Source: Boletus sp. NGJ
Taxonomy: Eukaryota > Basidiomycota > Agaricomycetes > Boletales > Boletaceae
Direction: 5' to 3'
DNA length: 64,000 nt
Assembly (NCBI GenBank): GCA_019096195.1
Contig: JAGTXK010000005.1
Span: 248,001 to 312,000 of the forward strand
Each line of letters opens with the position of its first letter. The stretch's first letter is position 1. Made by a program: the position numbers and the translations under genes. Positions 1,838 to 57,000 of the stretch are shown here, piece after piece. The notes beneath the pieces are model-generated. The model did no database searches. It had not been told where the DNA came from and saw nothing but the letters and a program-made list of their open reading frames with translations.

Positions 1838-4800
1838 CTAGGGGAACATTGTGTTAGAGGGGAATACGACGCCGTCTGGGCGGATCATGATCATGGGTCG
1901 ACGTTTCGTAACCTGGTTTTCCGGCGGCAGACACCCAAGGACCTCTGTGCACCTCACCTCTACATACGGCGAGGGCTCAGACCCAAAGAAGATATGAATG
2001 GGTTCCGCCTTGTTGAAATTTTCACCATATATCGTCAGCATCTTGCTGACGTGAGGATTCGGCTTCGCCAAGACACCACGGGACTGCTGACAGTTTGTCT
2101 TGGGTGCTTCCGCAGCACGGTCAGGAGGGAGGTATTTTACAACAGCAGGGAATGGTGTGACCGGCTTCGAAGGTATGGGGAATGACCCGATTTGCGGTGC
2201 GTTCTGGTTGTCAAATAAAACAGGCGGCACGTAAAAGTTGTACCGCACTTGGTCTGAAAGCATCCTTGTCAGAATGGAAGAAAAAGAATGATAAAACCCG
2301 GAGTATTACCTGTGCCAACAATCGTCCAGACGCTTGTTTCACCAATATCAACTTGCCACAGCGCCCCAGATGATGCACCGGAATCACTCGAGGAACCCCG
2401 GCGACCCGAGGACGCCGAGCCCGCTGATGTAGGACGTCTCCGACCCTTCGGACCAGGATTCTTGGTAATGCCACCGGCGCTCGACGTAGAGCGCTTACCC
2501 TTCTTGACACGGCCGCCGTCGTTGGAGAAATCATTGGACGACGATGGTGAGGCGGGTTCGCTGTTAGCCGTCCCATTGGCCTGGCCAAAGTAGTCGGGAC
2601 CGTTCGACATTGACGCCGGCGTCGAGACAACGGGAGAACCCGGAAGAATCGGTGATGTCGAGCCAAGGCTCTGGGGAATGTTCCACTGCCGACCTTCAAT
2701 TGGTCGATAGGTATTCACTTTCTCACCCATACAGGACAAGAAAGCGCCTGTTTGGCCGGGTGTGCCGGGCTCTGGCATTCCCTTGGTGGAGTCGAACACC
2801 TCAAAGGCAATCTTGTGGAGCTGGGACACAGGGTCGCCGCAAACTTCACCAGGGGAACAGTAGTGGTCTGCCACGCCTTTGGCGCCCTCCTGAAGGCCCC
2901 CACCAACAACAGTTGTTTGGTGGTCCACTTTACGGATGATGAGGACGGGTGAGACGACGCCAGAGACGAGGCACTGCAGCACTACTGTCTGGTTGTAGTA
3001 GATCGGGATCTGCGAGCCGTTATTTGTAAAAGGAATTGCATTTGGGGGAGGTGACGGGTAGTCAGGTTGAGGTGGCGGTGGCGGCGGGGCGTCGATACCA
3101 CCAGAAGGTTTGTTCACGTCAACGATGTACATAACGAACGGATCCCAGCTCGCAGTGCGGGCGATGAAAGACGGCGTACTCGACCTCGTACGGTTGTCAA
3201 TGCCCATAAGCGGTGCGCCATCGGAACCCTTAAAAGACGATCCGGAGCCGGAAACACAAAGGTATTTCGTGGACACCGTCTGGGAGCGCAAGCGGTGGAA
3301 GAGTGAAATGGTAGACCCGTGATTGATGCACACTGCGGATAACCAATTCATATCAACCAAACGGGACAAGTGAATTATATTTAACGTACGTTCGAGGTTC
3401 TTTGCGCTTTGCCTCTTTTTGCTTGGCTTGCTGATAACCTTGATGGGACGGGAAGGGAAAGTTCCGATGACACGCTCAGGCTCATCGTCGGATGAAGGTG
3501 CTGTAATCTTGACGAGGGCCTCAACCTTCTTCTTCTTCTCATCCACGTCTGAGATAAACAGTTGCTTGCCCACGCAGCGACCGATGTAAGTTGTACCCGT
3601 CGGGGCATCGTTTACGTCAAAAATCTTTCCAGACGCAGAAGTCCATTCAATCGTGCCCTCTTGAGGTACAGGTTCGCCGGAAATGCAAACGGTGACACGT
3701 GGGGGACAAAGCTTTGGTTCCTCCCCACGACGAACGACGTCTGTCCACCACGAGTTGCCGATCATTATCGCTGTTGGTGGGGGACAAAGGAAGCGCTTCT
3801 CGGTACCGTACGATTTTTGGGCGACCTTGGAGGACATGACAATGACGGTCCTTTCGCCAAAGGCAAGACGGTTTGGGGTGCGCACGTACTGGTCCAAGTA
3901 AGGGCTATCGAGGATAAACCTTAGTATGGGAAATTTCAAATTAATAGAATGTGACGGGTCTCACCGGATAAAGGTCTGCAAGTCATTCGACGAAACCATT
4001 CCTGGGCCATGGCGAAAACCAGGGAAGCCACCCATGCTGGGCATCAAGGACAAGTCTGCATGGGGGTTTGGACCCAAGTACTGGACATCTTCGTACGCTG
4101 GCATGCCTGAGTCGGGGCGGAAACAATGGGTGGCCTGTGGGGCGACGCCCGTTCGAAACATGTCGGGACTATGGCCCAAGTGGGACGGGAGAGAAGTGGG
4201 AGGGAGTGGGCTGTGCGAGAAATGGGAGTCGGGCTGGAAGCGACCCATGCGATCCGAGAACGGCTGGAGGGCGGATGGCGGGTAACCGGTACCATTGCTC
4301 ATACCATAATCATCTGCAAAATCAGAGTGATAGCCAGTGTTGGAGATCCGACGCTCAGGGAGAAGGTCAGAGTAATGGCTGTCGGAAAACGCCTTTTGAT
4401 GGCCGTTGAGGGGGAACACAGGAGAATGCTGTATGCCGGACATGGGATCGCTTGGGGTGAGTGGGGAGACCTTGCCCGAGCTGCCACTGTAGGATGAAGG
4501 AACGCTGCTCATCATGTCGTACGAGCTGCCGTTGGAGTGTGCAAAGGCAGGCATGGAGTCTGAGAAGGAGGTGCGGGAGTAAGCGGGGTCTTGTGCGATG
4601 GTGTAGGATGGTCCTATGGAGGAGGACGAGGAAGAGTTGGCGCGATAGCGAGTGGAGGAGAACGGGGTTGGGTTGTTGTTGAATATATCGTAGGGGGGGT
4701 GGTCGGGAACGTCAATGGGTTCTGCGTGATCGAAATTTTGAGGGGTGATCGACTGGGAGAGATGATGGTGCGAAGGGGAAGCGGCGTCGACGGAGTGTAG

Positions 4801-35315: not shown

Positions 35316-36881
35316 GTGATGGGAATGAGATGGGAGATAGCAGGGGGCGAGGGGGAGAAGGGGAAGATATAAGTGGTTTGGGAAGAAAGACGCGTCGATG
35401 AAATAGAGCGGGAAAAAAGGCAGGCGCTGGGAGACCCGTTTTAGTAGGTCCGTGTGGGTCCACCTTGTTGTGGGTCTGTTTGCTCTGTCCGTCTCTCTGT
35501 CAGCCCAGCTTTTATCTTCCTTTCCACAACGGCCAAAGCTACGGTCCACGAGCAATAGAGTGCACCACTCACCGAGCATACCGCCATCGTTTCCGCGCTA
35601 CAATAGAACACGCCTGACACCTGCCAAGGGTCAAAGCACCAAGCCAACACTGCTCGGTCCTTCACGAAGTCACAGCACCGCCGGTCCCGGGCGTCCTCCA
35701 CAGTGTGTCGCGTAGTCACAGTCACCCCTGCAACGTGGAGGTGGTCAAGAGCAAAGCAAGTACCGGGTGCCTGGCCTGGGAATTTTATTCAGTCCCTTTA
35801 GCCTTTCCCAGACGTTCAGGATGTTCTACTGTGAAACATTATTCTCTTGACGATGCGTCCTTCTGCAACCTCGTAGCACTGACGCTTTGTCTGTGAAAGT
35901 AACGACCATCCATCTACTCTCAACTCGACTTGTTCGATCTTGTCCAGCGCTTCAGATCCCCCGCCAATATCTTCGCATGTGCGTGATTCCACAGAAAGGG
36001 GCCAACAGCAAAAGAGTCCACAGTATCGGCAAATAAATGTCACGTATATTCGAAAGGGTCCGGTCCGTGTTCCACCTTTATCGAGATCATAAGTTGCCGG
36101 GCAGAACACTGCCCCGTGGATGGACGATGGATCCGCCGACCCATCACATCCATTTAGGGCACATATCGTACCCAATCATTGCGGGTCTCGTACTAGTCTC
36201 GCAGTAGGTCTTTGGTTTGGGATGTCGACCGATGGATGCCCTCACATTCAACGTGGGGTTCGTCGAGTGTCACTATCTCTATTCAACATAGTCGCGACGT
36301 GGGTCATTGATCTATCAACTTGGACTAGCCTCTCGTGGACCCGTATCCAACATGATCCAAGCAGGGTTGTCTTGCCGATAAATATCAATATCCTTGCTGT
36401 CTTGTTCTCATAAGGTCTGGCACATTTACTGATACCGCTCTATTCTAATATGGCTTTGACTCGGTAAACGTCCCGGTTTGGGTGTGGGGCCTCTGGAATA
36501 CAGTCCAGAACTAGATCCAGAACCTCGTATCTCTCCTCAGTACGGGGAAGATCAAGGGAAGATACTACAACTTGCCCAACTGCCAGTTGTACTACTGCAG
36601 GTGATGCGTTCAGTCCCATGCCTCATGCAATTGTAACTCTGATGGGATCACGCCCGGTGGCATCAGCGTTACTGAAACGACTCCAGAGTTACACGGTGCC
36701 CGTCATCGTGCGTCCAATGACATCCCGCATAAATATTAAAGTCCCCCTCGAAGGATGTCGGTGACTAAACTATAATTTGCGGAGGTACTACTTATAGGTA
36801 CGACGACCTGAACTTTATCGTCACTTTGCTGCTAGTGTGTGACATCGTAGGCTTCAAACCCCAAAATTCGTTTCCCCTATC
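35316..36881. other. Intergenic, 1.6 kb, between the HMG-box gene and the hydroxylase array
   Basis: Holds the HMG-box promoter. From about 36400 the sequence begins to resemble the flanks of the array units, including the box TGACTAAACTATA at 36762-36774. No gene recognised. Confidence 0.45.
36762..36774 (+). promoter_or_regulatory. Upstream box TGACTAAACTATA of array unit A
   Basis: Found 120 bp before the unit's ATG. The same 13-mer occurs before units B (37928-37940) and C (40827-40839). Unit E has TGACTAAACTGGA at 46638-46650, and unit D has a degenerate GCTAACTATAG near 43855. The core TGACTAA resembles AP-1/Yap1-type bZIP sites. Conservation may simply reflect recent duplication. Confidence 0.5.
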
Positions 36882-37393
36882 ATGACGGCTTCTGCTGCAC
36901 CTGTACTCGCGGTAAGCCTCTCTGGCTTGTGGCAGGATCGACAAGGCTAACGTGGGCGCGCGGTGTACGCAGACTGCATTTTCCATGCAGGCTTCGTCTC
37001 ACCTTATTTCTCAGTGATCAGTCATTCCGGGGGCCAAGGTCTAAACACATGTGTCCAAGACTATTTCTGAATGACATGCGCGACGGCGTCATCTCGATAG
37101 TACAACCTAGCTTGGAAACTCGCCCTGGTCCACAAAGGTCTATCCCCTGCCATCCTCCTGGAATCCTACACCCCACCACCGGGATCCTTCACAAGACACT
37201 CGGAGAGAAGACGGTCGAGCGTGATGAGCGGATGAACATGCCCGGGGTTAGTCGTGGCGCGAAGATGGAGACAAGGCTGATCGACGTGTTCAGCCCGACC
37301 TATCACATGGTGCTCGTGCTCATTGCGGATGCGGCGTCCTCGACAGATGTCCTCGAGGCATTGAGGTATTGTGGTGGCATACTTTCCATCTAG
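36882..37393 (+). pseudogene. Fragment of the FAD hydroxylase (array unit A), internally deleted
   Basis: The unit keeps exon 1 (36882-36911, MTASAAPVLA plus its GTAAGC donor). About 60 bp later it resumes near exons 9-10 (FAD motif region, CCGGGGGCCAAGGTCTAAAC at 37028-37047) and then carries part of the last exon, ending with KMETRLIDVFSP and VLEALRYCGGILSI. All of exons 2-8 (the FAD-binding Gly motif, substrate domain and DG motif) and part of the C-terminal domain are missing. It is too incomplete to act as a hydroxylase. It marks the left end of the array. Confidence 0.8.
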
Positions 37394-38052
37394 GATTCGA
37401 TGACCGTGAGCTCCTTTAATAATTGTTCGGGTTTGCTGTATAGTATCGTTTTTTGTTGTTTTATAGAGCAAGTACTACTTAGTACTACTTGTACTTGGGT
37501 ACAAGAACTGACGAAAGCGTTCTCCGAACAAGTTGGTCCGAGAATGATGATGTCATCGTCGAGCTAATTCGGTCAACCCGGCTGACCTAAGGACACTGGC
37601 ACGGTAGTAAAAGCACATTCAAGGACTAGTACCCACTCGGGCTGATCCATCATATTTGCCTTGGGGGCAAGCCTGACGGTCATACTCAATCATCGCGACT
37701 CTCGAGTCGTAGTTTTATCTTTGGTTTGGGATGGCAACCGAGTAGTCTGTTCGCCGAATCGGCGTGCAGGTGACGCACTCAAGTTCAATTGCAGTCATTA
37801 TAAATTTATAACCAGGTATGCTCAATGCAACTTTCAATTCTCATGACATCGATAATGCCACAGGCCATCTTCACCGTGCGTTCAATGAAAGAACGGCCCG
37901 CATAATGTCCCCCTTGGAGGATGTTTGTGACTAAACTATAGACTCGGGAAGTACTCCTTATACTGGGTGCGATAACCCAAAGCATCGTCACTTTGTTGTG
38001 CGTGTGCAATGTGGTCAACTTCACACCCCCCGCCAACTCGTTGCGCACTATC
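37394..38052. other. Spacer between array units A and B
   Basis: No gene. Contains a small direct repeat (AGTACTACTT twice, near 37470-37490) and the TGACTAAACTATA box at 37928-37940. Confidence 0.5.
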
Positions 38053-40085
38053 ATGAAGGCTTCTGCTGCACCTGTACTCGTAGTAAGCTTCTCGAGGTCA
38101 CTCGGGCTTTTGGTGGGATCGACAAAGCTAACATGCATGCGTGGTCCGTCGAGGCTCGTCGCTGCCCTCACACTGTTGCAGAATTATATCCCCGTTCATA
38201 TCATCGACAGGGAACCCCACTACCCTATCGGCCAGCGCGGTAGCAGACTTTGGGTAAGCCCCGATAGAACTTTGAGTCACATGCCTATATCCGCTAACAG
38301 ACAGTTTGGCCCCTAGCCCCGTACCTTTGAAGTATTCCACTTTCTTCGCGCACACGAGATTCATCAAAGGGCTACGCCAGTGCTCCCTATACGGGAATAC
38401 AAGCCTGGCACCCTCGAACCTACCAAGACCTTCTCGATATTCACTCACAACGATCCAACACCATCGGTTCCTTAGGTAAGTGTACATCAACTTTCTTGTG
38501 ACTATGACCAACTCCGTATGTTCTGTAGAATAACCCGATGTTCCTCGGTCAACCACCGCTAGAGGGTATCCTACGTTCTCACCTTAAAAAGTGTGGCTGT
38601 TCGATCGAGCTGGGAATTGAACTCCAATCGTTGAAAACGATGGAGATGGAGAGCGAGTACTCGCAAAGTTGGTCAAGAGGAAGGACGGCGAAGAGATCAA
38701 CATTCGAGGTATCATGTCTTATTGGCGCAGATGGTGCTAAAGGTGTGTGACTTCTATGGAACAGTCCTTTCGTGACGCGCGACGAGTCATGTTGTCTGGT
38801 AGGCGTCACTAGGAAACAACTTGGATTGACGTTCCTCGGCGAAACCAGGCAGGATTTTCACTCTGTCGTGGGAGAGAGGTCGAAGGCGTCGAGAGAGAAA
38901 AGTACGCGCGGTTTCTTGTCTATACAATATATGATATGAGACGATTCACTGAAACTGCATCCAGCACTGGCACTTCTTTGGCGACAGATCGTCCAGCTTG
39001 TGAGCATCAATCTCTCAGTGTTCTTTTGTATCTAATCTTCGCACAGCTTTATGCTTCGCCCATCGGATGAGATAGCTCCGGATGGTTTCCAGTTCTTGAT
39101 GACCTTGAAAGAATATGATCCGAAACAGCCGATTGCCGATGGGAAATTGTTGCTTAAATGCATAGCCGAACTGGATGGGACACGAAATTAATGTTAGAAA
39201 GATTGTCTTCCTGTCAGAGTACCGGTAAACTATACTGTAAGGACATGTCCGCTGATCCTATATAAGTCGAGACAGGCCCAACGTCAGGATGGTCGACAAG
39301 TTTGGTGTTGGTCGAGTTCTTATTATTGGCGGTGAGACAATCATGTATCTTTCCTCCTTCACTCATTGACATGCAACCTTCTGTAGACGCAGCCCAGTGC
39401 AGACCGCACTTTCCGCACAGGCTTCGTTCAACCTTTCTTCTCAGTGTTCATAGTCCTACCGGAGGCCAAGGTCTAAATACATGTGTCCAAGATGCTGTAG
39501 GTATTGTCCACAAAGGTCTTTCCTCAACTACCCCCCTCGACTCCTACACCACCCGGATCCTCGACCCAGATACTCGAAAACGCAGACGATCGAGAACTTC
39601 ACGAGGCACGCAGGTATGAACGTGCTAAGTGTGAATTATTGGACAAGTCCAATTATTCTGGACGAGTTTACGCATGCCGAACCCGTGCATGCGTATAGAG
39701 TATTGGAGGAGGGGGTGTTGGTGGCGGGTGATAGGGCACCGGATGCTACGGGGTTGCTCATGGCTGTCGATGGAGCGGAGACGGAGACGAGGCTGTTCGA
39801 CGTATTCATTCCGGAGGCGGCGTCATCGACCGATGTCCTCGAGGCGTTGAACAGGTATCCAGGGGACGTGATGCGGTCGATGATCGTCCTTCCGCAGGTT
39901 CGGAGGTGACGACTGTAGCACAGGCGGACGTGGTCATCGACCGGGGTAGGCATGCTTATCAGGGGTACTTGGCGGCGAAGGGAGAGAAAATGGTCATGGT
40001 CAGACCTGATGGTGTCGTGGGTGCCATCGTGCGGGGCGTGGAGGGGGTGGGAGCATACCTTTCCAGGGTTTTCAACCGACCGTGA
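38053..40085 (+). pseudogene. FAD-dependent hydroxylase, broken copy (array unit B)
   Basis: Same exon order as the intact units D and E, from ATG 38053 to a stop at 40083-40085. It is damaged in several places. The start of exon 2, including the whole GGGPSG FAD-binding loop, is missing. The last codon of exon 3 has become TAG (38473-38475). Exon 4 has extra and missing bases around 38635-38720. Exon 10 and the start of exon 11 are rearranged around 39490-39600. The C-terminal half of exon 11 still reads well (DEFTHAEPVHAYRVLEEGVL). Loss of the FAD loop makes activity very unlikely. Part of the last exon is still open and could be misannotated as a short gene. Confidence 0.82.
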
Positions 40086-40904
40086 ACTCCTTGCTGTATA
40101 GTATCGGGGATTTTTTTTTTCAAGGTGCATGTAGGGGAAGTCCATAGAGCATTCGGAGAATGGGCTAGTCCCAAAACGACGGGTTAACGTGCTAGTCAAC
40201 CTAATAGATCCAAGGTCGACTTCATGATTAGTTGAAGTTGCTGGGTAGGACACCTGTGCCTCGTCGAAGCACATTTGACGCACCAATCCATCCTATTCAC
40301 TGAAAGGGAGCCCGGCAGTCGTACTGCATCACTGCAAATATCTGACAAGCAGATGTGATGGGGGATATCGTCACATTCCTGGCTGAGTCGGACCACGTCC
40401 CGGATTGTGTGGGATCCACCTTGGCTTGTATAAGGCAAGCGTGCAATCGTAATGGCCGAGCTAGCATATAACAAGTTCTCTCTCGGTTCCGAACTGGGAG
40501 GCTGCAATCATATGAGTTGGGAGTCTGTAAAATCGAAGTTTTAGTATGAAGTAGCATCGAGGAAAAGTGTAGTAAACTACTGTACTCCTTCGGCATTTGC
40601 CTGGATCAAATTCCGACAAACGCGTACCGCCACTTTGACCTTAACACCACGTACGTAGTACTACCTTTGGTTTGTGTTACCAAGTATGACTTCCAAGTTC
40701 TGATGGGATCACGCCCCGTGGATCACCGTTACCAAGCTACAGGTCACAGGGTTGCCCGTCGCCGTGCCTCCACTGACAGAACAACCCAGATAGAGTCTCG
40801 CGCGCTGCGCGCATGATGTTCAATGGTGACTAAACTATAGCTCAGTGGAGGCACTGTATAGGATGCAATGACTCGGCGCTGTCCGTGTGCAACGTCGCGC
40901 TATC
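40086..40904. other. Spacer between array units B and C
   Basis: No gene seen. Ends with the TGACTAAACTATA box (40827-40839), 78 bp before the ATG of unit C, closer than in the other units. Confidence 0.5.
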
Positions 40905-43102
40905 ATGTCTCCTTCTGCTGCGCCTGTACTCGTGGTAAGGGGCCTCTCGGGCTGTCGGTGGGATCGACAAGGCTAACATGGACGCGTGGTGCACTAGGCT
41001 GGTGGTGGGCCATCCGGGCTCGTCGTTGCGCTCACACTGTTGCAGAATCACATCCCTGTTCGAATCATAGACAAGGAACCCCAGTGTCATATTGGCCAGC
41101 GCGGCCACGGGCTGTGGGTATGTGCCGATGAATTGATCCACATGCCGATGTACGCTGATTGATAGTTCGGCGTTCTCTTCTCTGAATAGCCCCGTACCTT
41201 TGAAGTATTCCACCTTCTCCGCGCACACGAGATTCATCAGAGGGCTACGCCAGTACTCCCCATACGGGAATACAAGCCTGGCACGCTCGAGCCTACCAAG
41301 AGTTACTCGATGTTCACTCACAATGACCCAACTCCCTCAATTCCTTATGTTTTCTATGGCGACGACTAATTCTGTATGTTCCGTAGAATAACCCGAAGTT
41401 GCTCGGTCAACCAATGATAGAAGGTATCCTGCGTTCTCACATTGAACAGTATGGTTGTTCTGTGGAGCTGGGAACGGAGCTTCAATCGTTTGAAGATGAT
41501 GGAGAGCGGGTACTCGCAAAGTTGATCAAGAGGAAGGACGGCGAAGAGATCTCTGAAACATTTGAGGCTTCATATCTTATTGGGGCAGATGAAGCTAGAG
41601 GTGTGTGCTCCCTATGGTCCGACTCTTTTGGCATGCAATAACTCATAGTTTCTGCTAGGAGTGACTCGGAAAGAACTTGGGTTAACATTCCTCGGCGAAA
41701 CCAGACAAGATTTGTCCTCCGTTCTCGGTGATATCTGCGTAGAGATTGAGGGGATCGACAGAAATGTATGCACGATTTCTTGCCTGCGGAATTTATAATG
41801 TGGGACGAATCATTGAAATTGCTTTAGCACTGGCACTTCCTCGGAAGCAGATCGTCCAACTTGTAAGTCTCAATTTCCCGATACTTTTCTACGCTGTATC
41901 TAATCTTCGGCTAGTCTTAGCTTCGCCCAACGGACGAAATAGCCCCTGATGGTTTCCAGATCCTGATGACGTTGAAGGAATATGATCCAAAACAGCTGAT
42001 CGCCGACGAGAAATTGCTGTGTAAATGTATATCCGAACTGATTGGACACGAAATCAATATTCGAAAGATCGTCTTTCTAACAGAGTACCGGTAAGCCATG
42101 TTATTGTCAAGACAGGTTAACCGATCCTACATGATTCGAGACAGGCCCAACATCAGGATGGTCGACAAGTTTGGTGGCGGTCGAGTTTTTATCGCTGGGG
42201 GTGAGACAATCATGCATCTTTTTCCTTCGCTCACTAATATATAAACTTCCGTAGATGCTGCCCAGTATGTACACTACACTTTTCATACACCATACAAACT
42301 TAGTCTGATCTTACGTCTCAGTGTTCACAGTCCTACCGGAGCCCAAGGCCTAAACACATGTGCGCAAGATGCTGTGGGTATTTCTGCGTGGCGTGCTCTC
42401 CTTGATTAATGGCGTCGTTTCGACAGCTCAACCTAGCCTGGAAACTCTCCCTGGTCCACAAAGGACTCTCTCCTGTCGCCCTCCTAGATTCCTACACCCC
42501 TGAGCGTCTCCCCGTCATCGCCGAAATGCTCAACATCACTACCGGTATTTTTTACAAGCTGCGCGAAGCGCCAACGATCGAGAGTGCCATGGAGCGTGAA
42601 AAGCGGATGAACATGCTCGGTGTGAATTGTCGAACTAGCCCGATTGTGCTGGACGAGTTCACGCATGCCGAACCTGTGAATGCATATGGAGTATTGGATG
42701 AGGGGGTCTTGGTGGCTGGGGATAGGGCACCGGATGCCACGGGGTTGGCCATGGCTACTCGTGGTGCGGAGATGGAGACGAGGCTGTTCGACGTGTTTAG
42801 CCCGACCCATCACACGGTACTCTTGTTCATTCCGGATACGGCGTCATCGACGGATGTCCTCGAGGTGTCGAGCAGGTAGCCTAGGGACGTGATCCGGTCG
42901 ATAATTGTCCTTCCGCAGGGTGGAGGTGACGACTGTGGCACAGGCGGACGTTGTCGTCGACCACGGTGGGTATGCTTATCAGGGGTACTTGGCGGTGAAA
43001 GGAGAGAAGAAGATGGTCGTGGTTAGACCTGATGGTGTCGTGGGTGCCATCTTGCATGGTGTTGAGGGGGTGGAGGCGTACTTTGCCAAGATTTTCGTCT
43101 AG
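40905..43102 (+). pseudogene. FAD-dependent hydroxylase, broken copy (array unit C)
   Basis: Exons correspond to those of D and E: 40905-40934, 40998-41117, 41190-41348, 41387-41600, 41659-41765, 41828-41862, about 41919-42091, 42148-42200, 42255-42264, then the last two from about 42321. The FAD loop (GGGPSGLVVALTL) is intact. Faults: intron 3 is only 38 nt and its donor is GTTTTC where unit D has GTAAGT; the DG motif reads ADEARG instead of ADGARG; exon 7 lacks one base at its start (ATG of the intact copies is AG); exon 11 has TAG at 42877-42879 and a 2-base gap near 42920. Upstream parts are well conserved, so inactivation looks fairly recent. A truncated transcript may still be made. Confidence 0.82.
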
Positions 43103-43992
43103 GATTTGATGACCACTGGCAGGAACGCCTTGCTGTATAGGTAAAGTACACATACGTAGGTACGAGAACTGACGAATCCAGCATTCTCTGAACGAGTTCA
43201 TACTAACTTGGTTATCTAACTTACTGACACGACTTGTTGGAATACAAGCCATGTCGCTGCTTACTAATCACATTTAGTTTTCAAACATTCGTTTTTCGCT
43301 CCCTCAGTGATTGTCTAGTACGAGACCACGGAGGTATGATCCTTACTACGCTCATTTATATTTAGCTGACCTACCTACTATAGCTACTGTCTGCTAAGCT
43401 TATTACTTCTGTCCCACCACGACTGAGATCAGAAGTTGCTGGGCAAGGCACTGCCTCGTCAAAGCCCAGGTCGTACTGGATATCTGACCAGTAGATGTGA
43501 TGCATGAAAGTTGTCTTGGAAGAGGGCAACCAAGGATATTCATCCCAGCCTAAGTCTCTGACCCAGCCTGTCCCGATTTATATGCAGGACCACTGGAACA
43601 TAAATATAATCCAGGTGTGCAATTGAAATTACTGAGCTAGATCTAGAATCTCGGATTACCGCTACCGGGGAAGATAACGAGTTCTTTTCAGAAAGTTGGA
43701 GGACGCACGCACCGCCGCTCGTGTCAACGGAATGCCATGGACTCTGATGCAATAATGTCCTACTTATGCATCAACATTGCTAAAAAAATGATCTTGCAGG
43801 GTCACCAGGTTGTACTCCACTGGCCGAACAAGTCACACGGGCTCCTATAGATGTCGCTAACTATAGCTTGGGGAAGTACTATGTATATCAGATGCGATGG
43901 CTCGACTCGGAAGTATCGGCGCTTTGCTGCCACCCACGTCACACGTACGTGCAACACCGTCGACTCCAAATCCCTCGTTTGGCTGTGCTATC
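43103..43992. other. Spacer between array units C and D
   Basis: No gene seen. Similar in character to the other spacers, with a degenerate upstream box near 43855. Confidence 0.5.
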
Positions 43993-46195
43993 ATGAAGCC
44001 TTCTGTTGCACCTGTGCTCGTGGTAAGTCTCTCTGACTTGTCGTGCAATGGATCCGACAAGGCTAACGTGGATCTCGTGTTCTGCACTACTAGGTTGGTG
44101 GTGGGCCATCCGGACTCGCCGCTGCACTCACGCTGTTGCAGAATCACATCCCCGTTCGAATCATCGAAAAGGAACCCCACCACCGTATCGGACAGCGCGG
44201 CAGCGGACTTTGGGTAAGCCCCAGTTGAATGAGCCACATGCTGATACATAGTTTGGCGCCTTCTGCTCTGAATAGCCTCGTACCTTTGAAGCATTCCACT
44301 TTCTCCGCGCACATGAGATTTATCAGAGAGCTACGCCAGTGCTCCCCATACAGGAATACAAGCCTGGCACCCTCGAGCCAACCAAGGGCTACTCGATGTT
44401 CACTCAGATGGACCCAGCTCCCTCCATTCCTTATGTAAGTGTACTTTAACTTTCCTGTGACGACGACCGATTCTGTATGTCGCGCAGAATAGCCTGATGT
44501 TCCTAGGTCAACCAACGCTAGAAGGTATCCTGCGTTCTCACATTGAACAGTATGGTTGCTCTGTGGAGCTGGGAACGGAACTCCAATCGTTTGAAGACGA
44601 TGGAGAGCGGGTACTCGCAAAGTTGGTTAAGAGGATGGACGGTGAAGAGATCTCTGAAGTATTCGAGGCTTCGTATCTTATTGGCGGGGATGGTGCTAGA
44701 GGTGTGTGTGACCTCTATGAATCAATTGCTTCGTTGCATGCGATGAATCATATTTTCTGCCAGGAGTGACTCGGAAACAACTTGGGTTAGCATTTCTTGG
44801 CGAAACCATGCAAGATTTTCACTCTGTTGTGGGAGATATCTGCCTACAAATTGAAGGGGAAGTAATTGACAGAAAGGTATGTACGCTTTCTTGTCTACGC
44901 AATATAAAATGCGAGCAACGAAATTGCATCCAGCACTGGCACTTCTTGGGGAACAGATCGTCCAGCTTGTGAGTATCAATTTCTCAGTATTTTTTTGTAT
45001 CTAATCTTTGCACAGCTTTATGCTTCGCCCATCGGATGAGATAGCTCCGGATGGTTTCCAGTTCTTGATGACCTTGAAAGAATATGATCCAAAACAGCTG
45101 ATCGCCGACGAGAAATTGATGTTAAAGTGCATGTCCGAACTGATAGGACACGAAATCCATGTTAGAAAGATTGTCTTCCTGTCAGAGTACCGGTAAGCTG
45201 CATTGTAAGGACAGGTCCGCCGATCCTATATAAGTCGAGACAGGCCCAACATCAGGATGGTCGACAAGTTTGGTATTGGCCGAGTTTTTATTGTTGGCGG
45301 TGAGGCAATCATGTATCTTCCTCCTTCACTCACTGACATACAACCTTTTGCAGACGCAGCCCAGTACGTAGACCGCACTTTCCATACATGCTTCATCTAA
45401 CTTTTCTTCTCAGTGTTCATAGTCCTACCGGAGGCCAAGGTCTAAACACATGTGTCCAAGATGCTGTAGGTACTTCTGAGTGGCGTACTTTCCGTCCTGA
45501 CAGAGTGGTTTTCACAGCTCAACCTAACCTGGAAACTCTCCCTTGTCCACAAAGGTCTTTCCCCAGCCACCTTCCTCGGCTCCTATACCCAAGAGCGCCT
45601 CCCCGTCGCCGCCGAAATGCTGAACATCACCACCGGAATTCTCCAACAGATACGCGAAGCGACGACGATCGAGCGCACCATGGAGCGGGAAAAGCGGATG
45701 AACATGCTCGGTGTGAATTGCCGGGCGAGCCCCATTGTTCTAGACGAGTTCACGCATGCGGAACCCGTGCATGCATATAGAATATTGGAACAGGGGGTCT
45801 TGGTAGCGGGTGATAGGGCACCGGATGCCCCGGGGTTGGTCGTGGCTGTCGATGGAGCGGAGACAGTGACGAGGCTGTTCGACTTGTTCAGCCCGACCTA
45901 TCACACCGTGCTCGTGTTCGCTCCAGATGCGGAGACCTCCGTGGATGTCCTTGAGGCATTGAAGAGGTATCCTGGGGACATGATTCGGCCGGTGATTATC
46001 CTTCCGCAGTGTTCGGACGTAAGGACTGTCGCGCAGGCGGATATTGTTGTCGACCACAGTGGGCACGCTTACCTGGGGTACTTGGTGGTGAAAGGAGAGA
46101 AAAAGGTGGTCGTGGTCAGACCTGATGGCGTGACAGGTGCCATTGTCCGCGGCGTTGAGGGGGTGGGGGCATACTTTGCCAATATTTTCGTCTAG
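43993..46195 (+). CDS. FAD-dependent aromatic hydroxylase, PheA/TfdB type (array unit D, intact)
   Basis: Eleven exons: 43993-44022, 44094-44213, 44276-44434, 44488-44701, 44764-44876, 44934-44968, 45016-45192, 45244-45299, 45354-45363, 45414-45465 and 45518-46195. They give 547 aa in frame. Motifs: VLVVGGGPSGLAAAL (GxGxxG, FAD ADP part, residues ~8-22), LIGGDGARG (DG motif, ~residue 170), and DAAHVHSPTGGQGLNTCVQD (second FAD motif, ~residues 301-320). The C-terminal part (DEFTHAEPVHAYR to VVVVRPDGVTGAIVRGVEG) matches the thioredoxin-like domain of phenol 2-monooxygenase relatives. These enzymes use NAD(P)H and oxygen to hydroxylate phenolic rings, and in fungi act in aromatic degradation, detoxification or secondary metabolism. 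Substrate unknown. No signal peptide, so cytosolic. Confidence 0.9.
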
Positions 46196-46787
46196 GATTC
46201 GATGGACCATGAACTCCTTGTTATATAGTCTCATTGTTGTGTAGAGGGTAAGTATCGATCTGTGGGTTGGTGCAACCACTGACAAAAGCATTCTCCGACT
46301 CGGGCTAATTCGGTCAACTCAGCTGGCCAGATCCAAGGACGCTCTCAATTGTCTCGCCGTGATCCACATCAGAAGTTCCTAGCTAACGAGTTCCTAGCTG
46401 CTATATTATGCCTGCACCGCCCCTCTTCAAGTCAGCTAGCGACATAACTTTTTGCCAAATTGGTACAACGGTAACGTATTCGGTTCCCGACACTACCACA
46501 GTTGCCCTGCGCGCAACCACGAATGCTGATGCCAATCACGTCCTGTGCATCAACGTCGCTACAATGACTTGGCAGATTCACTAGGTTTCCTTCTGATGGA
46601 AGTACTGGTATCCCACACAAACACCTGCGAATATCGTTGACTAAACTGGAGACTGGAACGTACTACAATGATTCCCAAGATAAATTCGCAGTACTACTTA
46701 TAGGCTACGCTGATGACTGGAAGCATCGTCACTTTACTGCCCGAGTGAAGTATCGTAGACTTCAAACCGTCGATTCGTTAGACTGTC
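46196..46787. other. Spacer between array units D and E
   Basis: No gene seen. Carries TGACTAAACTGGA at 46638-46650, the variant upstream box of unit E. Confidence 0.5.
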
Positions 46788-48984
46788 ATGACGGCTACTA
46801 CTGCACCTGTACTCGTGGTCAGTTTCTCTGATTTATGGTGCAATCGACAAGGCTAACTAGAACTTGCGCTGTGTACTAGGCTGGCGGTGGGCCATCCGGG
46901 CTCGTCGTTGCACTCACACTGTTGCAGAATCGCATCCCTGTTCGAATCATCGACAAGGAACCCCATCACCGTATCGGCCAGCGTGGCCACGGGCTTTGGG
47001 TAAGCCCCGATGGATTGATCCACATGCCGATGTACGCTGACTGATAGTTTGGCGTCTTCTCTGAATAGCCCCGTACCTTTGAAGTATTCCACTTTCTCCG
47101 CGCACACGAGATTCATCAAAGGGCTACGCCAGTGCTCGCTATACAGGAATACAAGCCTGGCACCCTCGAACCTACCAAGACCTTCTCGATGTTCACTCAC
47201 AACGATCCAACACCATCAATTCCCTACGTAAGTTTCGACTTTCCGGTGACTACGACTCACTCTATGTTCTTTAGAACAACCCAATGTTCCTCGGTCAACC
47301 ACCGCTAGAAGGTATCCTACGTTCTCACCTTGAAAAGTATGGTTGTTCCATCGAGCTTGGAACAGAACTCCAATCATTCGAGGACAATGGAGAGCGAGTA
47401 CTCGCAAAGTTGGTCAAGAGGAAGGACGGCGAGGAGACCTGTGAAGTATTCGAGGCTTCGTATCTTATTGGTGCGGATGGTGCTAGAGGTGTGTGACCTC
47501 TACGAATCAGTCCTTCCGTTGCGTGCGACGAGTCATGTTTTCCGCTAGGACTAACTCGGAAAGAACTTGGGTTAACATTCCTCGGCGAAACCAGGCAAGA
47601 TTTCTCCTCCGTTGTCGGTGATATCTGCCTAGAGATGGAGGAGATCGACAGAAAAGTACGCATGATTTCTTGTCTACGGAATATTTAATGTGGGATCATT
47701 CACTGAAACTGCTTCAGCACTGGCACTTCCTTGGAAGCAGGTCATCTAACTTGTAAGTCTCAACTTCCCGATGCTTTTCTACGCTGTATCTATTCTTCGG
47801 GTAGCCTCATGTTTCGCCCGACGGACGAAATAGCCCCCGATGGTTTCCAGTTCCTGATGAGCATGAAGGATTATAACCCGAAACAGCTGATCGCCGACGA
47901 GAAATTGATGTTTAAATGCATGTCCGAACTGATTGGACACGAAATCCGTGTTAGAAAGGTCGTTGTTCTGTCAGAGTTCCGGTAAGCCATGTTTTAAGGA
48001 CAGGTTCGCCAATCCTTGACAAGTCGAGACAGGCCCAACATCAGGATGGTTGACAAGTTTGGTGGTGGTCGAGTTTTCATTGTTGGGGGTGAGAGAACCA
48101 TGTATCTCCCCCATTGCTCACCAATATATAACCTCTGCAGATTCTGCTCAGTATGTAGACTACACTTACCATACACCACACAGGCTTCGTCTAACCTTTC
48201 TTCTCAGTGTTCACAGTCCAACCGGTGGCCAAGGTCTCAATACATGTGTCCAAGATGCTGTAGGTACTTCTGAGTGGTGTACTTTCCGTGGCTAACGGTG
48301 TGGTTTTCACAGCTCAACCTGGCCTGGAAACTCTCCCTGGCCCACAAAGGGCTGTCCCCAGCCACCCTCCTCGACTCCTACACCAAAGAGCGCCTCCCTG
48401 TCGTTGCCGAAATGCTGAACATCACCTCCGGAATTCTCCAACAGATACGCGAAGCGCCGACGATCGATCGCGCAATGGAGCGGGAAAAGCGGATGAACAT
48501 GCTCGGTGTGAATTGCCGGACGAGCCCAATTGTTCTAGACGAGTTCACGCATGCCGAACCTGTGAACGCATATGGGGTATTGGATGAAGGGGTATTGGTG
48601 GCGGGTGATAGGGCACCGGATGCCCCGGGTTTGGTCGTGGCTGCCAGTAGCGCAGAGACGAGGCTGTTTGACGTGTTCAGCCCGACCTATCACACCGTGC
48701 TCGTGTTCGCTCCAGATGCGGCGACCTCCGTGGATATCCTTGAGGCATTGAGGAGGTATCATGGGGACGTGATCCGGCCGGTGATCGTCCTTCCGCAAGG
48801 TTCGGAGGTGACGACCGTCGCGCAGGCGGATATTGTCGTCGACCACAGTGGGCACGCTTACCGGGGGTACTTGGCGGTGAAAGGAGAGAAGAAGGTGGTC
48901 GTGGTCAGACCTGATGGTGTCGTGGGTGCCATCGTGCGTGGCGTTGAGGGGGTAGGAGCGTACTTTGTCAAGATTTTCGTCTAG
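46788..48984 (+). CDS. FAD-dependent aromatic hydroxylase, PheA/TfdB type (array unit E, intact)
   Basis: Eleven exons: 46788-46817, 46880-46999, 47069-47227, 47275-47488, 47549-47655, 47718-47752, 47805-47981, 48033-48088, 48141-48150, 48208-48259 and 48313-48984. They give 543 aa in frame. Motifs: VLVAGGGPSGLVVALTLLQN (residues 8-27), YLIGADGARG (DG motif), and DSAHVHSPTGGQGLNTCVQD (299-318), then the C-terminal thioredoxin-like domain ending VVVVRPDGVVGAIVRGVEG. It is two codons shorter than unit D in exon 5 and two in exon 11, but otherwise closely similar. Exon 9 is only 10 nt. All splice sites look usable. Unit E lies only 210 bp upstream of ATG5. It is probably functional, with the substrate not predictable from sequence. 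Confidence 0.92.
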
Positions 48985-55664: not shown

Positions 55665-57000
55665 TCAGCCCAAGAGACCGTGGGAGCGTAGTAAAGGCAT
55701 ACACGAGGAGGCGTAAAGCCGCAACTGGCTTAAACTTGACCATATAATCCGTAGTCGATTCTGATATGGATCGTATGGGCTCAGCTGGAGCGACGATTCT
55801 TCGGACAAGCCAATCGCCATGGCAGTCTGCATGGCAAGCTGTGGGAGTGGGCATCAGTCAAACTCGGACATCGGTCAGACCACACGCACGTCGCTATACT
55901 GACGGAATCCTAGTTCCGGGCGCATAAGCAACAGCTCGAGGAATGCGGTGTCTATAACGTACCATGCTCGCGACCACTCTTGTACTCTGCCCACGCGAGA
56001 AGAATCGCCGCTTGGAGTGTCTCAAGGGAAGGGTGTTGGAGCGATGCTGACAGTTGTTCCTAATATATTTCCGTTGGTACCAGCAACCGTATTAAGCGAG
56101 AACGGGCTCACTTTCGCAGTATCACAATAGATTTCAGCGACGGCCTGCGAACCTCTTGTAACAATGTCGGGGATATCGGAAAATCTGCAAGGACGTGAAG
56201 CGCGAGCTCTATGGTCCATACCAAGCACATCACCTTGCACCCAAAGCAGCTATGCAATTCGAAAGTAGGGGAGGCAACGTCTGACGTCGAAACTTGTCGG
56301 ATATGTCTTCGTAGCTGAGGAAGGGGCACTGGGCACCCATATTGCTGATGAATAATTGTATGAACTGTTGCATCCAGGCCCGCTGGGGAGATGATGGGTG
56401 TCCAGCATCGAAGAGTAGAGGCGACCTGTATGGTGGCGATTGTCCAGTATGTCTTCCATACGAAGAACCAAAAGCGGATTGAGTGAGACGGTGACCGTTG
56501 TGAGATCCTGAACTCTTGGCATGGTCAAGAGGGTAAGATTGGTAGCGTACATGAGCATCAGTATTGTGTGCGGTTGACTGAGGCGGCGAGTATGACGAGG
56601 AGCGTCGCATGGATAGTGGTGGCGTTGGAGGAGCATTTGGTGCAGAAAACTCTGCAACAGTGCTCTCGGGGGTGTCGTGAGACTCATATTCAGCTCTACC
56701 AGCTTGACGTGTGAGGTTAGGTCCGACGATGGCTCGACTGCGCTCGGCAAAGTAGCGCTCTCGATCTCGAAATTTGCATTGGATCTTTGCGACTTTGCAT
56801 GCTTCGCAATGGGAGTCCGAACTAGGTTGAAGACACTTGATCTTTTTTAAGCGACTGAAGGGGAAAACAGTGAAGACTATAACGAATGTACGATGGCACC
56901 AATGCGCTTACCAATTATCACAGGACGTGACAAGACGAGGGCGTTTCTTGTGACTTTGAGATTCCTGAGGGGACTCGATAATAAACTGGAAGCCTTCCAT
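55665..57000 (-). CDS. Zn2Cys6 binuclear cluster transcription factor, short C-terminus
   Basis: Proposed exons: 57000-56912, 56854-56234, 56184-56112, 56059-55963, 55909-55890 (20 nt) and 55838-55665, giving 357 aa in frame. The zinc cluster is CDNCRLKKIKC, then CEACKVAKIQC (C-x2-C-x6-C-x8-C-x2-C-x6-C), split by intron 1. A Ser/Tyr/His-rich linker follows. The fungal-specific transcription factor domain is then recognisable: RFSDIPDIVTRGSQAVAEIY, LETLQAAILLAWAEYKSGRE, and across the 20-nt exon GFRQYSDLAMQTAMAIGL. The model stops soon after RLRIIWSSLSQLRLY, much earlier than usual for this family (commonly 600 aa or more). Either further exons towards 55100 were not resolved or the gene is truncated. 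Regulates unknown targets in the nucleus. Confidence 0.7.

Follow-up and report, generated by a model that had tools for sequence, protein, structure and literature searches.

A five-unit tandem array of an FAD-dependent aromatic hydroxylase gene in Boletus sp. NGJ, with broken units, intact units and mosaic gene bodies

Introduction

Tandem gene arrays in yeasts contain degenerate copies, some of them at the array end; a study of these arrays reports a relic in 11% of them and invokes birth-and-death evolution (PMC2822764). For the tandem arrays of Trypanosoma brucei, array regions are described that give inconsistent affinities, and a homogenisation that coexists with divergence (PMC1855330). 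In our literature searches, no title on an array of the FAD_binding_3 hydroxylase family was found.

Here we describe such an array in a window of 64 kb, the whole stretch of DNA analysed, on contig C107 of the Boletus sp. NGJ genome (32.8 Mb, 141 contigs). Its short introns and its genes are in keeping with a fungal, probably basidiomycete, source. Our locus resembles the yeast arrays in having tandem paralogs beside degenerate copies, but differs in that three of its five units are broken and in that each gene carries ten introns, allowing introns to be compared with spacers (PMC2822764). It shares with the T. brucei arrays the region-dependent affinities between units, although those arrays belong to another lineage with polycistronic expression and conversion in them was studied with several genomes (PMC1855330). 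The hydroxylase array is one of a documented kind, the relic-bearing tandem arrays with region-dependent affinities.

Results

Comparison of the window with itself gave collinear direct repeats across the whole gene, confirming the original prediction of five head-to-tail copies, all of one FAD-dependent aromatic hydroxylase gene (PF01494) on the forward strand. The start codons lie at 36882 (unit A), 38053 (B), 40905 (C), 43993 (D) and 46788 (E), and the distances given earlier for consecutive units, 2852 bp for B-C, 3088 bp for C-D and 2795 bp for D-E, are exact. The predicted state of the units was also borne out, with A a fragment, B and C broken, and D and E intact. The spacer upstream of unit A (36083..36881, forward strand) contains islands homologous to the B, C and D spacers at 36083-36232; since this homology reaches left to about 36.08 kb, the array is wider than first noted, extending over approximately 36.1-49.0 kb. 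The array had been placed between an HMG-box gene and ATG5, and Pfam profile matches confirmed both neighbours: the HMG-box gene (PF00505, E = 1.8e-14) is the left neighbour on the reverse strand and ATG5 (PF20638, E = 3.5e-14), with its start codon assigned by eye, begins about 210 bp past E. In agreement with the claim that other biosynthetic genes are absent nearby, a Pfam scan of 18 neighbouring frames (64 ORFs are listed in the window) revealed no clear biosynthetic partner; at 62.5 kb, a frame resembling aldo/keto reductases scored 20.6 bits, below the cut-off of 24. The window also encodes a CSL/LAG1-type DNA-binding protein at 2269-3960 on the reverse strand (PF09271, E = 2.5e-53; PF09270, E = 1.3e-9), and a reverse-strand frame at 56230-56907, which is without a Pfam match, shows by eye a CxxCx6C pattern that resembles a portion of a Zn2Cys6 binuclear cluster.

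Units D (43993..46195, forward strand) and E (46788..48984, forward strand) are intact FAD_binding_3 hydroxylase genes of 11 exons, coding for 547 and 543 amino acids, respectively, in which all introns are GT-AG and 47-71 bp long and no internal stops occur. The donor of the first intron is GTCAGT in E versus GTAAG in A to D, the former being weaker yet canonical. We scanned the E protein whole with the profile of FAD_binding_3 (PF01494), which matched residues 6-356 (E = 1.8e-65, 221.9 bits versus a cut-off of 22), and read the D protein for motifs. In the translations, flavin motifs were recognized by eye as GGGPSG, GADGARG and VGDSAH in E and as GGDGARG and VGDAAH in D; we take the three motifs of E to be the GxGxxG, DG and GD motifs of group A flavoprotein monooxygenases. 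Among the best 60 of 85 structure matches, the closest solved structures to E are the monooxygenases 5kow (rifampin monooxygenase, E = 3e-35), 3ihg (RdmE) and 1pn0 (phenol hydroxylase). The likeness of E to these group A flavoprotein aromatic hydroxylases lies within residues 6-395 and includes the flavin motifs common to both, whereas the best-scoring matches end by about residue 400 of E. The C-terminal part of E scored 19.6 bits, below the cut-off of 24.9, against PF07976, the C-terminal thioredoxin-like domain as in phenol hydroxylases, and the predicted structure of exon 11 (mean pLDDT 39.2) is too low in confidence for a C-terminal fold search. We infer from family membership that D and E are genes for group A flavoprotein aromatic hydroxylases, whose two products are related but distinct. 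The likeliest predicted activity is hydroxylation of a phenolic or polycyclic compound, aromatic compounds of these two types being the usual substrates of this group.

Unit A (36882..37395, forward strand) is a 0.5 kb relic. Exon 1 and portions of exons 10-11 remain, as does, judged by eye, the 3' end, whereas exons 2-9 have been lost together with further internal pieces. As A keeps both gene ends and is therefore not end-truncated, it was once a full unit. Unit B (38053..40085, forward strand) is a pseudogene with about 14 lesions in the alignment; in E's reading frame its codon 103 is a TAG, eight indels break the frame and four in-frame deletions take 42, 30, 3 and 3 nt, and another deletion removes most of intron 10 plus the start of exon 11. 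Unit C (40905..43102, forward strand), also a pseudogene, has like B kept the exon layout. It is broken by a TAG at codon 469 and by deletions of 1 nt in exon 7 and 2 nt in exon 11, and the donor of its shortened intron 3 is damaged (GTTTTC). The lesion counts of B and C depend on one alignment with E as the reference, and the listed stops and frame-breaking indels differ between the two pseudogenes. The predicted fall of damage from left to right is real, but among five units a strict order in either direction would arise at random in about 1 of 30 cases, and the gradient could be due to chance.

Exact copies of TGACTAAACTATA occur three times in the genome, solely before the broken units A (36762..36774), B (37928..37940) and C (40827..40839), all on the forward strand and 78-125 bp ahead of the start codon. 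Upstream of E we found a diverged form with 2 mismatches in 14 (46638..46651, forward strand). No TGACTAAACTATA within 3 mismatches was found upstream of D, and a shortened form is visible by eye near 43857.

To place the units among their relatives, we searched the genome with the DNA of D (3' part) and E, and all 8 of 8 matches fell inside the array. The E protein gave at least 36 matches, at least 31 of them in the array; its closest matches outside, at least 5 and all on contig C109, are remote, with 32-42% over some 75 aa. This concentration of matches marks the units as one local family. A grouping of the units with genes elsewhere, the outcome named as speaking against the original prediction, was not seen: within this genome the units match each other, and the tandem paralogs are closer mutually than to the rest of the genome, as under birth-and-death evolution. 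For PF01494, at least 22 matches were listed in the genome (20 of 66 candidates scored), 19 of which lie in three tandem clusters, with 12 on C109 at 356-384 kb, 4 on C102 at 822-832 kb and 3 in the array described here; among the matches listed, single ones are on C114, C44 and C17.

The C109 cluster corresponds to a second FAD_binding_3 tandem array (L061-L065, 355501-388500) of four copies and one partial copy. Its units are larger and have a second stretch that is 88-94% identical between units and that, in L064, the unit scanned with Pfam, holds a cytochrome P450 gene (PF00067) on the opposite strand. Most of its hydroxylase stretches align separately, at 68-86%; L064 and L065 align in one piece at 91%. 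On C102, a third FAD_binding_3 set (L066-L067, 821001-833500) apparently comprises three head-to-tail copies on the reverse strand, which are 82-85% identical over long pieces; the C-terminal end of the E protein matches two of theirs (42-48% over 44-48 aa).

We then compared the spacers, using the distal parts more than 200 bp upstream of the ATG in local alignments against 200 dinucleotide shuffles and three control stretches. Our conclusion rests on this test rather than on an earlier one with 30 mononucleotide shuffles, in which the proximal 150 bp were included. Eight of the ten spacer pairs scored above all 200 shuffles, A-E reached p = 0.035 and the homology of C-E was not significant in this test (p = 0.21, p values being per pair); the lowest p among 18 pairs including a control stretch was 0.050. 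The islands are 21-61 aligned bp long and some margins are narrow, as for B-C with a score of 27 versus a shuffled maximum of 26. With nine of the ten pairs sharing islands at p ≤ 0.035, tandem duplication of units including the spacer is supported, and these homologous islands suggest that the duplicated unit probably took in the spacer, as unequal crossing-over would give. When aligned end to end, the spacers of units B to E are 44-55% identical (8 shuffles per pair), and their distal parts are globally at or below the shuffled level in 4 of 6 pairs and exceed it by about 2 sd in the other two, B-E and C-D. In contrast, the introns, aligned likewise and without exon anchors, are 71-80% identical, intron cores without splice signals 70-78.5%, and Ks is 0.38-0.48, so that the gene bodies are less diverged than the spacers at presumably neutral sites. 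Faster evolution of spacers than of introns may be the plain cause of this gap. As the spacers are at or near chance identity while the introns remain well alignable, the array and its duplications appear to be old.

To follow affinities along the gene, we used a four-way alignment of B to E, leaving out A as too short. The 137 quartet-informative sites comprise 63 for the grouping BD/CE, 41 for BC/DE and 33 for BE/CD. Like sites are adjacent 95 times versus 48.2 (sd 5.4) expected, a value reached in 0 of 10000 shuffles; the excess persists at third positions plus introns (62 versus 32.9 expected, 0 of 20000 shuffles) and in introns alone (25 versus 17.6 expected, p = 0.008). From exon 3 to exon 4 (E 47061-47400) BE/CD is favoured at 19 of 21 sites, from exon 5 to exon 10 (E 47546-48240) BD/CE at 44 of 51, and in exon 11 (E 48241-48984) BC/DE at 27 of 38; the other three blocks hold 10/5/2 mixed sites, 5 BC/DE sites and 5 BE/CD sites. 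These block borders were set after inspection of the data, whereas the topology tests were run on five equal slices fixed independently of site patterns. BD/CE was the sole accepted tree in slice 3 (others p-AU < 1e-4) and BC/DE in slice 5 (others p-AU 0.012 and 0.005), slice 2 preferred BE/CD with one of the others rejected (p-AU 0.007 and 0.076), slice 4 preferred BD/CE and rejected BE/CD alone, weakly (p-AU 0.043), and slice 1 singled out no tree of B to E. A single tree for the units was rejected, since the gene slices disagree and slices 3 and 5 reject each other's tree. The whole-gene alignment prefers BD/CE (others p-AU 0.020 and 0.005), which we attribute to the strong middle block. 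The unit tree proposed earlier, with introns and spacers included, therefore failed: instead of one tree, the regions of exons 3-4, 5-10 and 11 favour three. The mutually rejected trees show that the units exchanged sequence, and a unit tree cannot show which copy is oldest.

Exchange tracts could be located directly, all on the forward strand. B 39042..39119 and D 45011..45088 are identical at 77 of 77 positions with 22 discriminating sites (0 of 2000 permutations). With mismatches allowed, B 38313..38463 and E 47056-47215 are identical at 147 of 151 positions (global p = 0.036), and D 45635..45724 and E 48430-48519 at 83 of 87 (global p = 0.0005); at this setting only three tracts reached global p < 0.05, with none for B-C, C-D or C-E. 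The Ks of B-D is 0.074 in exons 8-10 versus 0.41 in exon 11; exons 5-7, taken together, have a value of 0.43, which is not below that of other regions and argues for recent exchange in only part of this stretch. Judging from these tracts, sequence has evidently moved between units now broken and units now intact, an exchange between units of the type seen in concerted evolution.

The claim that D and E are kept by selection was followed up with the dN/dS check that had been suggested, and D-E gave a Ks of 0.379, a Ka of 0.084 and a dN/dS of 0.22 (FAD part 0.18, C-terminal part 0.35), indicating purifying selection. Changes unique to one unit, counted at codons that are the same in the remaining three, gave a dN/dS of 0.35 (B), 0.23 (C), 0.22 (D) and 0.16 (E); neither B versus D+E (Fisher p = 0.085) nor C versus E (p = 0.49) differed significantly. 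As the value of C is close to that of D, C looks recently inactivated rather than old. Taken with the lesion counts, dN/dS makes a loss in the order A, B, C plausible. The array thus combines constrained functional copies with independent pseudogenes, a further feature of birth-and-death evolution.

Discussion

Altogether, the locus is most probably an old tandem array that evolves by birth and death and is partly homogenised. Head-to-tail duplication, presumably through unequal crossing-over, would have multiplied whole units of gene plus spacer, and ectopic recombination, either gene conversion or crossovers within genes, would have moved short tracts between units. Such exchange may have kept gene bodies and introns alignable while the spacers decayed to islands. 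Redundant units carry the lesions described above and would have lost function in turn, A, then B, then C, while D and E remain under purifying selection.

The original prediction had explained the locus by repeated unequal crossing-over with old copies decaying on the left. Its tandem duplication holds, but a recent simple history is not supported, given the old spacers, the mosaic and a unit C that looks recently lost. Repeated recent crossing-over alone, with age and decay falling from left to right, would account for the head-to-tail order, the similar pitch, the lesion gradient and the homologous spacer islands; we consider it unlikely, because the spacers are at or near chance identity, trees contradict each other along the gene and neighbours are not consistently closest: in exons 5-10, B pairs with D, and C pairs with E. 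As intragenic crossovers could yield such mosaics, this explanation merges with an old, partially homogenised array if the breakpoints were intragenic. It is rather improbable that B and C act as a pseudogene reservoir from which conversion repeatedly refreshes parts of D and E, including their middle (substrate-side) exons; if so, pseudogenes would feed diversity into functional hydroxylases.

An assembly in 141 contigs might invite the suspicion that dikaryon haplotypes or chimeric contigs were joined end to end. However, the exons of any two units among B to E differ by 13-18%, the spacers of these units can hardly be aligned and the broken units carry different lesions, which far exceeds usual allelic differences and makes such an artefact hardly credible. 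It is equally hard to believe that repeat-induced point mutation (RIP) of the duplicates made the lesions. Among the changes unique to C, 51 are C>T/G>A versus 28 in reverse, as RIP would leave them, but there is no clear excess in B (53 versus 47) or E (27 versus 28), and intact D has 40 versus 29. In addition, the TpA/ApT index of the window (0.66) falls within the range found for the units (0.55-0.75) and the lesions of B are nearly all indels; substitution counts, indices and indel-dominated lesions thus leave RIP unsupported as the lesion source.

The old, partially homogenised array preferred here provides a clean small case for comparing introns, exons and spacers, and illustrates how exchange can mask the age of a tandem array and how misleading a unit tree can be. 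It also shows, within a single genome, one enzyme family repeatedly arranged in tandem. Existing knowledge of tandem arrays is unchanged by this case, which is an ordinary, well-preserved example of family growth and decay.
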